The notes beneath the pieces were generated by a model. It searched no databases and was not told the DNA's origin. It saw only the letters and a program-made list of their open reading frames with translations. A stretch of 64,000 nt of DNA, from contig NC_089447.1 in assembly GCF_026210795.1 (NCBI RefSeq), positions 3,722,501 to 3,786,500 of the forward strand, given 5' to 3'. A program made the translations under genes and the position numbers. Shown here piece by piece: positions 14,764 to 23,445 of the stretch. This DNA is from Rhizophagus irregularis. Lineage: Eukaryota; Glomeromycota; Glomeromycetes; Glomerales; Glomeraceae. Positions within the stretch are counted from its first letter, which is position 1. Every line of letters starts with the position of its first letter.

Positions 14764-17700
14764 CTAAACTGTTGCTAAATTTTTTAATTCTTTTTTTTCT
14801 TGGTTTAATTCTAATTTCAATTCATTCAAATTATTTCTTAATGAATTTATATCTTCTTCCATCATATTAGAATTTAATTGAATTCTGGTTCCTTCCTGAG
14901 AATTAGTAGCAAGTTTAAAAATTTTGTATTTATCAAGATTAAAAGAATTCAACTTAAGAATATTTTCAATCATGAGGCTAACTTCCAACTCTTTATTTTC
15001 CTGAATAACATTCTTTAAGGAATAATAATTTTTGTTCAACTCTAATAATCCATCATTATATTTTACAAGAATACTTTGAAATTCTTTAGTATACTTATCA
15101 GTCAATTTAGAGATTTTCATATCTGTAATAGAGCCAATGGTAATTCTTTCCTTATTAATAGAACTTACTAGATGATTACAGACACTATGTAATTTTTTAA
15201 TAGCTTCTTCTCGTAAAGTTAAGAATTCACCCTTAACTTTCAGAAAATTATTGACTTGTTTGAAAACTTGAGTTTTTCTATTGACATTATAAGAAGTTGA
15301 AGTTCTTAATAATTCTTGTTGGAGTTCATTCATCTCTATTTGTTTAGCTTCTTTTTCTTTATGAATTTCTTTAGTATTTTTTCCACCAGTTAATTCATTT
15401 AATAATTCCTTATTAATTTCACCCAATTCTTTTCTTTTATCTTGTAACTTATTAATACGCTCTTGATCAAGGTTAATCAGCCTTTGTTCTAATTTATTTA
15501 TTCTATCTTCTTTAATCTGTAAGGCTTGGGTTAATTGCATTTTGATTTGTTCTTCAATGATTAATTTTTGTTCCAATTGAGCAATTTCTTTTTCCAACTT
15601 AGTTTTCAATTTAGTTGTAAGCTTTTGTTCTTGTGAAAGTCCTTCAACTATATTGTATAACCTGATCTTTTCTTGTTTTATCTGTTCATAATTAACTCGA
15701 AACTGACTTAATTTACTTTCTAATTGCTCCTTTTGTTCAATTAAGCTTTCTTTATAAGATTTTAATTCTTGAATATTAGCTTCTGTTTGAGCTAATTTTT
15801 CTTGCAATTTAGTTTCTTCTTGCTTTAACTGGCTGACCTGATCTTGAACTTGCTGGTTAGTTATTTTATTTTGTTCTAACTGTTCAGTTAAATTGGTGCA
15901 ATTGCCAGCTAAGTTTTGATTTTCATTTTGCAGGTCAATAATTTGGCTTTGTAAAATATCTTCTTTTTCTTCAAATTCTTTAGACTGTTTAGCTAAATTG
16001 AGTCTCAGATTTTGATTGTTTTGATCAAATTTAAAATTACTTTGTTGTAAATCAAATAATTCATTTTCTAACTCAAGATTTTCTTCTTCTGTTTGAATTA
16101 ATTGATTTTTAAATTGAGAATTTCTTTGTTGTAAATTAATAAACTCATTTAGAGAACTTTGATAATAAGTTTCAGCAATCTTTTCTAACTTAAGAATTTC
16201 TTCTTCTGTTTGAAAATTTCTTTGTTGTAATTTAATTAACTCATTTTGAGAACTTTGATAATAAGTTTCAGCAATCTTTTCTAACTTAAGAATTTCTTCT
16301 TCTGTTTGAGAATTTCTTTGTTGTAATTTAATTAACTCATTTTGAGAACTTTGATAATAAGTTTCAGCAATCTTTTCTAACTTAAAATTTTCTTCCTCTA
16401 CTTGCTTATGACCAATTTGATATCGATTTAGTTGATTTTTAAATTGATCTTGCTGAGATTTTAATTCTTGAATAATGGTTTCTGTTTGGACTAATTTATT
16501 TTGCAGATTATTTTTTTCTTGATTTAACTGACTGTTTTGTTTTAACTGTTCAGTCAGCTTACTATCTAAAGCTTGTTTTTCACTTTGAAGGTTTGTTACT
16601 TTTTTTGCAAATTCTTCATTTTGTAAAGTTGAGTTTTGTTGTAAATTAACTAATTCCATTTGAATATTTTGTAATTCATTTTGAGAACTTTGATATTTTT
16701 GTTTTAATTCAAGAAATTCTTGAGAACCTTCTAGAATTTTATTTAATTCTTTACTAGTAAAATCAAGTAAATGACTTGTATAGCATGCTTTTGGATGAGA
16801 TTTTACAATAAGATTATTATGCTCAATTGGTGCATTTATAATTTCCATAATATTGCTTTTTAATTCTTCATTAATTTCATTATTATCATCAGGACGGAAA
16901 ATCCAATTTTTAATAATATTTAAAATTTCTTTAGAAGATGGCCTTTTTAATGGATCTTCATCCCAGCATTTTTTCATTAAATCTATATAACATTGTGGAG
17001 TATTTTCAATAATTTCAGGACGTTCACCTTTACAAATACTTAAAGCAAGTTGAAGATCATGTGCTTTATCATTAAATGGTAGAATTTTAGATGTAAATTC
17101 CCACATAATTATAGAAAAACTATATATATCACTAGCTTGAGTATAAGGTTGACCTTTTAAAATTTCAGGTGCTATAAATGGTAAAACTCCAAAGATATTA
17201 TTTTCTTTTAAAAAAGATTTTGTAAGTTGATATAATCCTAAATAATTACTAATAAAAATTCCATATATGTCTTCTTCATATTTGTTACATAAAATATTAC
17301 CATTATGAAAGTTATAATGAATAAGATCTTCTTCATGAATATTATTAAGACCTTTAATAATTTGATATAAACAAAATAATTTTTGTTCCCAATTTTTTGC
17401 TATTTCTGTTAAACATCTGTTTAAACTATTCTTATTTGTATACTCCATTATTAATACATAATTCAAAGTATCTGGATCTTTTGTAAATCCATACATTCTA
17501 ATAATTTCATATGAATCATATGAATCAATAATTTTCCACTATAAAAAACAATATTTATTAATAAAATAGTATAAATAAATTATAATATTAAAAAAAAAGA
17601 TATTTAATCATACTTCATTTAAAAATTCATTTAAACTTTCATCTGAATTATTAAGATAATCAAAATATTTAAGAATAACTTTAACTTCATTATATTTTGC

Positions 17701-17802
17701 TTTATATATAGTACCAAATCCTCCTTTATCAAGATATTCAATATTTTTAAATTTATTATAAGGAATCCATTTTAATATATTTTCAGAAATAAATTGATCC
17801 AT
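14764..17802 (-). CDS. Pseudokinase with long C-terminal coiled coil
   Basis: Exon 17614-17802, a 75-nt GT-AG intron (GTATGA donor) and exon 14764-17538 join in frame to 987 residues from the ATG at 17802. The N-lobe has the glycine loop GGFGTIY (residues 27-33) and the lysine in VILK (K45). The catalytic HRD is HYN (about 137-139) and the DFG position reads NYL (about 161-163), so both key aspartates are gone while APE and the C-lobe (SDIYSFSIIMWEF) remain. A phosphotransfer-dead scaffold or sensor is likely. From about residue 320 to the end the protein is Gln/Glu/Lys/Leu-rich coiled coil with three near-identical 32-residue repeats. The coding frame stays open upstream of this ATG (FGTSGSEI, to 17827, just after an AG), so translation probably begins further 5', in the microexon chain at 17828-21514; the predicted full CDS is 3108 nt, 1035 residues. 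The kinase fold is certain, the inactivity inferred. Confidence 0.85.
16090..16400 (-). repeat. Three 96-bp in-frame coding repeats in the coiled coil
   Basis: A 96-bp unit (32 residues, core LEKIAETYYQSSQNEL) is repeated three times at exact 96-bp spacing, anchored at 16161, 16257 and 16353. Copies differ by only a few bases, so the expansion is recent and preserves frame and heptad register. Confidence 0.9.
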
Positions 17803-18053
17803 AATTTCACTTCCACTAGTACCAAATCTTTAAAATATAAAAATGAAATTATATTAAAAATTAAAATTTAAATAAATTTTACAAAATATTAAATAATGTT
17901 AATTATACTTACTCTAATAAAATTGTAAGATTTTAATATAATAAATAATTTATTAATTTAAATTTTAAATAAATAAAATATAATAACTTATAACTTACCA
18001 ACTAAAATAAATTAATTATTATGAGTAAATATTATATAATTATAATAAATTAA

Positions 18054-18451
18054 AGGGTTTTGTTTTTTATCGCCATGGCGATGCATCGCCAGTGTCACGT
18101 GATTTTATAATTCCGGCCGGAATTAAAAGATCGTCAAATAAATATCCTTTTTTGGAAGTTTTGTGTAACAAAAACTTGAATTTTGCTGAAAATTAAAATT
18201 GCCTTTTTTGGATTGTGTAACGTTACCTAAAGCTCCAAAAAAAGATATTTTGGCCAGCGTTACTGAAATTAAGCATGTGATGTATAGGGAGTGACAAATA
18301 GTATTTTTTGCACTGAAAAAATTTTAAGTTCCCAGAATAAATAATAAAAATGGAAAACTAGAGGATGTGACGCGGGATGACAAATTATTCACATATGTAA
18401 AGTCACGTGACACTTGCGACACATCGCTATGGCGATTTTTTATAAAATCCT
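18054..18451. mobile_element. TIR MITE (about 398 bp) inside one microintron
   Basis: Ends are inverted repeats of about 48 bp with mismatches, from AGGGTTTT at the left to AAAATCCT at the right, sharing TCGCCAT.GCGATG and AGTGTCACGTGA. A duplication AAATTAA (8 bp TAAATTAA if the flanking T is counted) lies at 18047-18053 and 18452-18458. The interior has a perfect palindrome AATTCCGGCCGGAATT. No coding capacity. It lies between the predicted microexons at 17999 and 18510. Confidence 0.8.
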
Positions 18452-18479
18452 AAATTAAATATAAAAAAATATAGGATTA

Positions 18480-20915
18480 TTGTAATTAAAAAAAAAATGC
18501 AATACTTACAAGCTAAAATATTTGAATAATTTTTTAAATAAAGAATTTAGTTAGTTTAAATTATATATATTATATAAATATAATAGAATTACTTACGATC
18601 TAAAATATTTGAATAATTTTTTAAATCAAGAATTTAGTTAGTTTAAATTATATGTAAATATTATATAAATATAATAGAATTACTTACAATCTAAAATATT
18701 TGAATAATTTTTTAAATAAAGAATTTAGTTAGTTTAAATTATATGTAAATATTATATAAATATAATAGAATTAAATAAATAACATACTCCCTATATTATT
18801 AAATGAATAATTTTTTAAATAAAGAATTTAGTTAGTTTAAATTATATGTAAATATTATATAAATATAATAGAATTACTTACGATCTAAAATATTTGAATA
18901 ATTTTTTAAATAAAGAATTTAGTTAGTTTAAATTATATGTAAATATTATATAAATATAATAGAATTAAATAAATAACTTAAAACTTACCAACTAAAAGAA
19001 ATTCAAAATAATTTTTTAAATAAAGAATTTAGTTAGTTTAAATTATATGTAAATATTATATAAATATAATAGAATTAAATAAATAACATACTCCCTATAT
19101 TATTAAATGAATAATTTTTTAAATAAAGAATTTAGTTAGTTTAAATTATATGTAAATATTATATAAATATAATAGAATTACTTACAATCTAAAATACTTG
19201 AATAATTTTTTAAATAAAGAATTTAGTTAGTTTAAATTATATGTAAATATTATATAAATATAATAGAATTACTTATAATCTAAAATATTTGAATAATTTT
19301 TTAAATAAAGAATTTAGTTAGTTTAAATTATATGTAAATATTATATAAATATAATAGAATTACTTACAATCTAAAATATTTGAATAATTTTTTAAATAAA
19401 GAATTTAGTTAGTTTAAATTATATGTAAATATTATATAAATATAATAGAATTACTTACGATCTAAAATATTTGAATAATTTTTTAAATAAAGAATTTAGT
19501 TAGTTTAAATTATATGTAAATATTATATAAATATAATAGAATTAAATAAATAACTTAAAACTTACCAACTAAAAGAAATTCAAAATAATTTTTTAAATAA
19601 AGAATTTAGTTAGTTTAAATTATATGTAAATATTATATAAATATAATAGAATTACTTACGATCTAAAATATTTGAATAATTTTTTAAATAAAGAATTTAG
19701 TTAGTTTAAATTATATGTAAATATTATATAAATATAATAGAATTAAATAAATAACTTAAAACTTACCAACTAAAAGAAATTCAAAATAATTTTTTAAATA
19801 AAGAATTTAGTTAGTTTAAATTATATGTAAATATTATATAAATATAATAGAATTAAATAAATAACATACTCCCTATATTATTAAATGAATAATTTTTTAA
19901 ATAAAGAATTTAGTTAGTTTAAATTATATGTAAATATTATATAAATATAATAGAATTACTTACGATCTAAAATATTTGAATAATTTTTTAAATAAAGAAT
20001 TTAGTTAGTTTAAATTATATGTAAATATTATATAAATATAATAGAATTACTTACGATCTAAAATATTTGAATAATTTTTTAAATAAAGAATTTAGTTAGT
20101 TTAAATTATATGTAAATATTATATAAATATAATAGAATTACTTACAATCTAAAATATTTGAATAATTTTTTAAATAAAGAATTTAGTTAGTTTAAATTAT
20201 ATGTAAATATTATATAAATATAATAGAATTAAATAAATAACATACTCCCTATATTATTAAATGAATAATTTTTTAAATAAAGAATTTAGTTAGTTTAAAT
20301 TATATGTAAATATTATATAAATATAATAGAATTACTTACAATCTAAAATATTTGAATAATTTTTTAAATAAAGAATTTAGTTAGTTTAAATTATATGTAA
20401 ATATTATATAAATATAATAGAATTAAATAAATAACATACTCCCTATATTATTAAATGAATAATTTTTTAAATAAAGAATTTAGTTAGTTTAAATTATATG
20501 TAAATATTATATAAATATAATAGAATTACTTACAATCTAAAATATTTGAATAATTTTTTAAATAAAGAATTTAGTTAGTTTAAATTATATGTAAATATTA
20601 TATAAATATAATAGAATTAAATAAATAACATACTCCCTATATTATTAAATGAATAATTTTTTAAATAAAGAATTTAGTTAGTTTAAATTATATGTAAATA
20701 TTATATAAATATAATAGAATTACTTACAATCTAAAATATTTGAATAATTTTTTAAATAAAGAATTTAGTTAGTTTAAATTATATGTAAATATTATATAAA
20801 TATAATAGAATTACTTACGATCTAAAATATTTGAATAATTTTTTAAATAAAGAATTTAGTTAGTTTAAATTATATGTAAATATTATATAAATATAATAGA
20901 ATTAAATAAATAACT
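18480..20915. repeat. Tandem array of 91/103/110-bp intron-like units
   Basis: Nearly identical units with the core AAATAAAGAATTTAGTTAG and ATATAATAGAATT repeat at spacings of exactly 91, 103 or 110 bp, depending on three different junction segments. Read on the minus strand the three junctions are TTTTAG-ATC/ATT-GTAAGT (91), ATATAG-GGA-GTATGT (103) and TTTTAG-TTG-GTAAGT (110). The 91 and 103 types alternate for several copies (20246-20728), giving a 194-bp dimer. The array is homogenised, indicating unequal exchange or slippage. Confidence 0.95.
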
Positions 20916-21665
20916 TACACCCTGTAGCATTATTAATTAATAATAATTATAAAGTAAAGTAATTATAATCAATTAGATAAAATATTATAATTGTATATAA
21001 AAATTAAATATATACAGTAACTTACAATCTAATTATTTAAATAAATATTATTATTAGTTTAATTATATATAAATACTTTTAAATTAATATAAAATTAATT
21101 ACTTACTTTCTATAATATTAGTACCATAATTATTAAACAATTATATTAATAGAAAAATTAGTTATTTAAAATATCATGTAAAATACAATAAAAAAATTGC
21201 TATTAACTTACCAACTATAATATTATTCATTAAATAATAAAATAAGTTATTTAGTTATATAAAATAATAGAAGTAATTTAATTATAAGATAATCTATTAC
21301 TTACGAGCTAATATAGTTAATATAGTAAAAATAATTTTAGAAATAGTTAGTTATACGTTTATAATTTTTTTTAATAGCAAGCTATTAAGCAATTTTCTTA
21401 CCTTTATCTTCATTATGTTGCAAATTGGTTTGAAAAAAATTTTAGAATAATTTCAACTTGTATTAGATATCTATATTCATATTATATACTTTTACCTTTA
21501 TTATTTTGAGCCATTACTAAATAATTTTATTGGAATTCTTCCTAAAAAATAGGGTAAAAAAATTAAACTCCTTTATTCGAGCATATATAGTTGTTTGTGT
21601 AATATTATCTATGCAAAATGCAGATACCAATTTTTCAGGTTTTAGTTCCAAATATATTCAATTAG

Positions 21666-22119: not shown

Positions 22120-23445
22120 TTAGACGTTATAACGTTACGATGACGTTACGTCAATGGTATCACTAAATTATAAAAATACAACTTTCTTGTCGATCATTAT
22201 TAGCTAAAAGTTAAATTAAAGTTAAATTAATATTTGTTTTTTTCATTTTCACATTTCTTTTGAGAGTATCAAGCGCCAGTACAATAGTGCTCATTGCAAA
22301 TTTTGTTATGAAGTAAGAAGGTGGACATAGTAATTTTCGATCTTTGAAGACGGATGCGGGTGGGCTGGTGGCATAATGCAAGTAATGCAAGAAATGCCAC
22401 TATATAGATACGTTTATGGTGACACATATACACTCAATGGGCGGGTGTGACAAATAGAGATCAGACAACTTAAAAAATGTCCCGATATAAATATAAACAT
22501 GTAAGTTGTAACTACAAGACTTTTCTGGAAGGACAGGCTATAGTTATGATCTGTTAAAAAAAATAGAAGGAATAAAGGGTTTAAAGCAGTTAGGTTTAGA
22601 TTTTATTTTATTTTTTTTTTCGAAACAATTTTTTTTAAAAAAAATTATAATTGTCTAGCGAAGAGTGGAGAGTTGTCCAGAGCAAAGCGAAGGAGTGAAA
22701 GGACTATATATGTTTATGAGCATATTGGATCACATGGTAAAATCTTTTATCCGCACGCGTTACGTCATTCGCCTCAAAATTAATCTGGAATAGGTTTTAC
22801 TTATGTAAAAAAATTATTATAAAATGATAATTACTAATGAAAGAAAATAATACTACAATATAAATAAATCAATTTTAATTTTATAAAATTGCGTATTAAA
22901 AAACTATAAAACCATTATAAAAGAGACACAAAACATAAAATTTTTATATACAGTACATAAGCCTCTTCTATTTGTAATTGAGTAAAAAGACTAAAAAACA
23001 TGAAAAAAGTTTAAGTTCTAACGAAAAAAAACACTTGAAAAAATTTTTTTACACAAAAAATCCCAGTACAGCTTAATTTTAAGGTCAAGTAAACTATTTT
23101 TATCTCCAAAAATGAAATTTTGTGCTACATCTTGCTACAAAAAAAAATATAAACAAGATAAAATATAATAAAATTTGTGATATATAGATTTTCGTAATTC
23201 TTGAATGTTTTGTGTGTAAATACCTGGTTCAGGGGATGATGATATTTGGCATTTCGCAAAATATCACATAAGTCACAAGGAAGGAACTCTTTCCGCTGAT
23301 CTTTCGGTTAAAAATTTCTGGAGACAGAAAAGTGTTATTAAAGAAAAATTTTATTATACAAATACACAAAAATAACCACAAAAATGGAATCAGCATACAA
23401 TTTTACAGAATATAAATGTAGGTTTATTAAAGAGAGTAAAAACCT
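22120..23445. other. Intergenic, no gene recognised
   Basis: AT-rich with some GC-richer patches (22330-22470, with GGGTGGGCTGGTGG). No coding or structural signal that I can support. Confidence 0.5.

Follow-up and report, generated by a model that had tools for sequence, protein, structure and literature searches.

A gene on the minus strand of a 64,000-nucleotide stretch of the Rhizophagus irregularis genome (contig NC_089447.1, positions 3,722,501 to 3,786,500; the whole stretch is the window below, and positions are counted from its first letter) very probably encodes its N-terminal segment one codon per exon, through tens of 3-nt exons that would be spliced in order and translated. As read from the sequence, exon 1, ending in codon phase 1, would give the ATG and be followed by a short exon 2 with a length that is a multiple of three; tens of 3-nt exons would come next, separated by introns of some 90 nt that have strong donors and TAG acceptors, and a 1-nt exon "A" together with a kinase exon would complete the frame. 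The gene model has about 35 exons with predicted splicing, 30–31 of them 3 nt and one 6 nt in length.

The order of the triplets carries the evidence for this reading, and was analysed in 51 loci: the window, 10 loci found by DNA similarity to its 3' end, 20 of the 46 genomic places with a chain start, and 20 of the 94 with a chain end. The last 20, hand-picked for spread over the contigs, are held-out loci for which the search pattern was blind to the triplets. With exon 1 at 1 mod 3 and exon 2 at 0 mod 3, each codon is made of the last base of one triplet and the first two bases of the next, and a stop codon in this frame needs a triplet ending in T before one starting with AA, AG or GA. The 803 adjacent pairs of the first 31 loci form no stop at all, where shuffling within each locus gives a mean of 31.4 and a minimum of 16 in 2,000 shuffles. 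The held-out loci have none in 478 pairs (shuffle mean 18.6, minimum 7), and in all 51 loci there are 0 stops in 1,281 pairs (mean 50.1, minimum 29 in 2,000 shuffles). The same 1,281 pairs read in phase 2 give 214 stops and in phase 0 give 2.

This absence is specific to what follows a T. After the 331 triplets ending in T, AA, AG and GA are never seen, while AT (78) and GG (100) are common; after the 950 ending in other bases, AA is found 151 times, AG 64 times and GA 37 times. Counting each type of pair only once, the stop-forming starts are present in 0 of 112 types with a T-ending first triplet vs 96 of 339 others (Fisher p 2.8e-14). The avoidance is also confined to neighbours. Triplets joined at distances of 2, 3, 4, 5 and 6 give 40, 42, 38, 25 and 24 stops where shuffling yields on average 40.8, 34.3, 28.2, 24.0 and 20.6, and when weak donors are included in the 31 loci there are 0 stops in 913 joins at distance 1 and 30 in 832 at distance 2. 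Across gaps of 176–260 nt, where one exon has probably gone undetected, 6 of 111 pairs form stops and 7.2 are expected. That stops are avoided at adjacent joins alone argues that selection acts on the in-order joins, and supports the reading that the 3-nt exons are each included, in order, and translated. The original prediction for this DNA, in which the triplets are joined by splicing and translated as the N-terminal part of a pseudokinase, thereby gains its support from the adjacent joins of both the full and the held-out sets and from skip-one joins that are at chance. The two alternatives that it had offered, stepwise removal of one large intron and a repeat of dead introns, do not predict an avoidance of stops that is limited to adjacent joins.

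The pairs counted are strong sites at a spacing of 60–135 nt, which make up 1,281 of the 1,455 neighbouring pairs in the 51 loci. Left out are 169 pairs at 136–800 nt, 8 of which make stops, and 5 at less than 60 or more than 800 nt. Sites with weaker donors are likewise left out, except in the one test in 31 loci, where they are 58 of 1,004 sites. A TAA triplet in locus L011 lies 1,531 nt past the preceding site and enters no pair count. Being related by descent, the 51 loci are not independent of one another; the distance and gap controls bear on this kinship. A comparison of intron with triplet identity in 23 loci was not used as support, the loci having been chosen by CTC or CTT as chain exon 1, ATT as exon 4 and GGT or GGA as exon 5, such that the triplet identities of 0.78–0.91 and the presence of ATT in 23 of 23 are partly built in by the choice; in the most diverged quarter of these loci intron identity is 0.64, vs 0.59 for shuffled introns.

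In the window there are 30 sites with AG, three bases and then GTAAGT or GTATGT on the minus strand between 21309 and 18003, and a 31st triplet, ATT at 19279–19277, that can be read from the sequence with a mutated donor, ATAAGT. This is the number of sites that had been predicted, one mutated donor included. When exon sizes from 0 to 24 nt are scored across the chain region, there are 30 sites at 3 nt and at most one at each other size, and outside the chain region the 64 kb hold one such 3-nt site on the minus strand and three on the plus strand. The spacing of the triplets is 81–107 nt, with the exceptions of 182 nt at the mutated donor and 511 nt at an insert resembling a miniature inverted-repeat transposable element (MITE).

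All of the following features are on the minus strand. Exon 1 (21496–21514) has the ATG start, is 19 nt long (1 mod 3) with the donor GTAAAA, and was placed by alignment with six paralogues; the same alignment places the 6-nt exon 2, ATAAAG, at 21402–21407 with a putative acceptor. The chain, defined by the site pattern, opens with CTC (21305–21307; codon GCT, Ala), which was also found by the chain-start search, TTG (21212–21214) and AAA (21107–21109). The fourth triplet, ATT (21026–21028), and the fifth, GGT (20919–20921), which completes the Trp codon TGG, are those that recur in other loci, as described below. They are followed by ATC (20819–20821), ATT (20728–20730), GGA (20634–20636), ATT (20534–20536), GGA (20440–20442), ATT (20340–20342), GGA (20246–20248), ATT (20146–20148), ATC (20055–20057), ATC (19964–19966), GGA (19870–19872), TTG (19767–19769), ATC (19660–19662), TTG (19566–19568), ATC (19459–19461) and ATT (19368–19370). 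The degenerate ATT with the ATAAGT donor (19277–19279) is probably skipped, the frame being kept either way. The remaining triplets are ATT (19186–19188), GGA (19092–19094), TTG (18989–18991), ATC (18882–18884), GGA (18788–18790), ATT (18688–18690), ATC (18597–18599), CTT (18510–18512) and, as the last before the 1-nt exon, TTG (17999–18001), which is found at this place in 12 of 16 loci.

The 1-nt exon, TAG|A|GTAAGT with its A at 17913, is identified by the site pattern, by comparison of paralogues and by the genome-wide search for chain ends. Comparison of paralogues and translation place the first kinase exon, entered as E|FGTSGSEIMDQF..., at 17614–17827. The second (14764–17538), from its translation and a profile match, holds the remaining kinase domain and a long coiled-coil-like C-terminus, ending in a TAG stop. 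These two exons, the 1-nt exon, the 6-nt exon and exon 1 lie where the original prediction had put them. Its coding sum was recomputed as 19+6+93+1+214+2775 = 3108, or 3105 without the exon with the mutated donor, both divisible by three. The predicted N-terminus of the window gene is MAQNNKDKALENW. The peptide read from the 30 intact sites differs slightly from the one first proposed: it runs ALENWYHWNWNWNYH..., with one WN fewer.

The chain is one of a large family. The genome contains 2,349 successive TAG-NNN-GTAAGT pairs 60–90 nt apart (1,121 of them forward and 1,228 reverse), where the identical search finds none for 4-nt exons, 8 for 6-nt exons and 2 for the reversed pattern. The start of a chain, CTC then TTN, is found in 46 places and its end, the 1-nt exon A with a kinase exon starting ATTTGGNA, in 94, the control being 0 in both cases. 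Nineteen of the 20 chain ends fetched from these 94 have at least 12 strong 3-nt sites. Of the exon sizes up to 30 nt scored in 31 loci, 3 nt has 822 sites and 1 nt has 60, and no other size has more than 9. The 60 hits at 1 nt, AG|N|GTAAGT, were considered as extra 1-nt exons within the chains and rejected, as they include the final A and triplets starting with AG. Across the 51 loci there are 1,506 strong sites on the chain strand vs 3 on the opposite strand, with gap-free runs reaching 60 sites, and 11 to 99 strong sites per fetched stretch in 49 of the loci. Scaling from these 1,506 sites per 575 pattern hits, there would be roughly 6,000 strong sites genome-wide, a rough extrapolation that assumes representative loci.

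The largest number of strong sites, 99 in 10 kb, mostly TTG and AAC, is in L007 (contig C22, 2759000–2768999); this stretch ends at 10 kb inside its chain, with the 3' end (C22, 2769569) outside it, and other stretches may have been cut likewise. Successive 6-nt exons of the same style are present at C21:737816–741316, C24:920411 (L029), C24:856123 and C24:975403, and possibly represent a version of the chain with two codons per exon.

Both ends of the chain recur between loci. Models were assembled for 19 of 31 loci, the others lacking a 1-nt A in reach (7 loci) or having a start other than CTC or CTT (5 loci). For exon 1, only candidates whose second codon was on a list drawn from the family were admitted; 15 of the 19 models have one, 13, 19, 22 or 31 nt long and 1 mod 3 every time. 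Four of six aligned paralogues have an exon 2 of 24 nt and L001 has one of 33 nt, and L003 has a change in the usual acceptor; the exon 2 of the window has been cut to 6 nt by a deletion, which retains the multiple of three. Upstream of the first CTC, the diverged loci L013, L015 and L021 have a long exon 2 that is in phase with the chain and encodes acidic repeats resembling EEFEGS. The ATG of the window's kinase exon is not present in the kinase exons of L001, L003, L005, L006, L008, L009 and L010, so the start should lie upstream.

Where loci were chosen by the first two triplets only, the fourth is ATT and the fifth GGT in 12 of 13 contiguous cases, L012 being different, and in the held-out loci starting CTC or CTT there is ATT and then GGT or GGA in five of six contiguous cases, with L046 the exception. 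The second triplet starts with TT or TC depending on the locus, which is synonymous at Leu (Phe after CTT), and the recurrent peptide at the chain start is A-[L/F]-x-[N/D]-W. At the other end, the 1-nt A was found in 16 of 21 loci examined, and all of these but L026 continue into the kinase exon in the predicted phase (15 of 16). The chain ends in F-E-F-G in 10 of 19 models and has Glu before the FG of the kinase exon in 15, and the reading from chain to kinase is open in 15 of 19.

The introns of the chain have a median length of 93 nt, ranging from 65 to 130 nt within the 60–135 nt spacing filter (n = 1,281), and their lengths are about equally divided between 0, 1 and 2 mod 3 (445, 439 and 397). 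A CTRAY branch-like motif is present in 972 of the 1,281, vs 332 after each intron is shuffled, and a T occupies position -3 at 93% of the sites. Nearly all donors are GTAAGT, for which the search pattern itself selects. Such strong signals on the intron side would let the exon bases vary, and the spliceosome would pair sites across the short introns and not across exons, the exons being so small.

In the window, intron plus 3-nt exon units form a homogenised array at 18503–20904, which repeat analysis resolves into a period of about 91 nt and its multiples, with units that share the middle of the intron and differ at its ends and in the triplets. This array suggests that units of about 91–107 nt, each of them an intron and an exon, are duplicated or unequally exchanged, which would lengthen and shorten the chain. 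As a unit would consist of an intron and one codon, each such event would add or remove one codon and the frame would never be broken. Inclusion of the exons would be in order and constitutive, at least at the level of selection, given that stops are avoided at adjacent joins only.

The MITE-like insert noted above, at 18490–18050, stretches one chain intron, and a different insert with inverted ends is present in a chain intron of L002 (gap 375); chains seem to tolerate insertions within their introns. Inverted copies around TGACGGCGCAGTGTGGCGCAG at 22130–21660, just upstream of exon 1, were seen by eye and are possibly another MITE near the promoter. Tandem arrays of units of about 60 nt with GTCAAGTCTGAC-like cores, at 967–2403 of the window, have no visible link to the chain.

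The product would be a kinase-like protein carrying a variable N-terminal extension with a recurrent start and end. The second kinase exon matches PF00069 at 97 bits (curated cut-off 31.7) over residues 2–207 of P0002, with RIPK4 as its best match by sequence in the PDB, and the long coiled-coil-like tail follows the kinase domain; within this tail a 96-nt repeat, coding for 32 residues, is present three times (16114–16399). Active kinases have HRD and DFG motifs with catalytic aspartates. In the window gene, the only one searched for them, neither motif is found in P0001 or within residues 1–280 of P0002; HYN is at the HRD position and, at the DFG position, there is NYL by eye or GIF by HMMER alignment. 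The window gene therefore looks like a pseudokinase. Among the residues that the chain encodes in the first 31 loci, R, L, Q, F, E, D, N and W are abundant. In mid-chain the depletion of stops is the strongest signal (z -6.7), followed by those for V (-3.6), E and F (+2.6), W (+2.5) and H (-2.5). Strong conservation of the middle of the peptide was considered and rejected, its preferences being weak apart from stops. At a guess, the extension might be a variable interaction or linker segment.

Four other explanations were weighed. The least probable, to the point of being nearly discounted, is a satellite of dead introns, in which functionless tandem copies of an old intron boundary have accumulated. 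The core array is homogenised and the window does hold other tandem arrays, but other loci have many different triplets with the 3-nt size kept, successive 4-nt variants number 0, and selection on the frame is seen in held-out loci. Recursive splicing has as its hallmark an AG beside, or close to, a GT inside a long intron that is otherwise removed entirely. Removal of one large 5' intron by such steps, with the triplet bases not kept, would account for an AG close to a GT throughout the stretch, but is very improbable. A recursive site regenerates the donor at once and nothing is kept, whereas here every site has three bases between its AG and GT. These bases would be unconstrained if they were discarded, but the frame test indicates that they are kept, as neighbouring in-frame joins avoid stops; moreover, the whole stretch is just 3.5 kb or so.

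The two remaining explanations accept that triplets are translated. Combinatorial alternative splicing, proposed for the micro-exon genes of schistosomes and here meaning 3-nt exons skipped at will to give many N-terminal isoforms, has in its favour that any skip keeps the frame, all chain exons being 3 nt, and that flatworm micro-exon genes do this (PMC7653826); it is nevertheless improbable, as the skipped joins at distances 2 and 3 are not protected from stops. It is somewhat less doubtful, although still unlikely, that the run of introns is itself what is selected, slow or staged splicing controlling expression while the peptide is a by-product kept free of stops. The predominance of stop avoidance among the mid-chain signals would fit this, as would the spread in strong-site counts, which run from 11 to 99 in the 49 loci that have more than two, but the ends of the peptide recur, with ATT and GGT as chain exons 4 and 5 and Glu before FG in most of the loci compared.

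Several observations weigh against the reading of a translated single-codon chain. L030 and L038 have only two strong sites each. When the window and six paralogues are aligned, L001 shows no ATG in the usual position. Stops are present in four of the 19 models: L003 has one at the 1-nt junction, L026 has a frame slip in the kinase exon, and in L021 and L027 the stops fall across gaps where an exon was probably missed. L001, L003 and L026 may be pseudogenes. A search for a spliced retrocopy, using the predicted spliced string of the one locus L010 and skipping very common words, matched the kinase exon alone (20 places) and no junction. The peptide may also be only a spacer, the mid-chain having little amino-acid preference beyond the open frame.

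The nearest known kind of gene is the micro-exon gene (MEG) of flatworms, found in schistosomes and tapeworms, and the gene modelled here has the structure, at least seven exons included, given in the definition for tapeworms in PMC7653826. In the MEGs of Schistosoma mansoni, exons are mostly 15 bp, ranging from 6 to 81 bp (3 to 81 in the abstract), with 10–20 per gene, and there are long introns and alternative splicing. The Rhizophagus chain differs in having tens of exons of exactly 3 nt, short and partly homogenised introns, skipped joins that are not protected from stops, a fungal host and a kinase-like host protein. Splicing of a single 3-nt micro-exon is reported for Drosophila homothorax (PMC7392893), this being one alternatively spliced exon as opposed to a chain of dozens. 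Exons of 1 nt that complete a frame are reported for plant APC11 and VPS55 and for Fusarium CYP621A (PMC8831610, PMC4674806 and PMC12940212), that of VPS55 having GTRAGT donors. These are isolated exons, whereas the 1-nt exon of Rhizophagus closes a chain, in 94 places. No description of such a single-codon exon chain was among the matches listed for the open-licence literature, including those for micro-exons with Rhizophagus or mycorrhiza.

An exon of 3 nt is too short for factors to meet across it, and a gene that needs some thirty of these joined in order probes how far intron definition and splicing fidelity can go; with its many natural single-codon exons, the family would be a resource for studying what the spliceosome requires. 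Standard read aligners tend to miss micro-exons, as PMC7821500 reports, and the 5' ends of many genes in this model symbiotic fungus may thus be mis-annotated. The broader proposal, for and against which the balance is even, is that about 6,000 single-codon exons, by extrapolation, in something like at least 100 genes share this codon-by-codon architecture, and that exchange between the similar introns flanking each lone codon inserts, deletes and swaps single codons with the frame always kept, diversifying kinase-like N-termini. The architecture suggests that proteins may evolve residue by residue through DNA recombination. If true, this would be exon shuffling at one-residue resolution, an engine diversifying the N-terminus of a kinase-like family, and were the exchange of units shown to be a source of variation, the architecture would count as new in kind.

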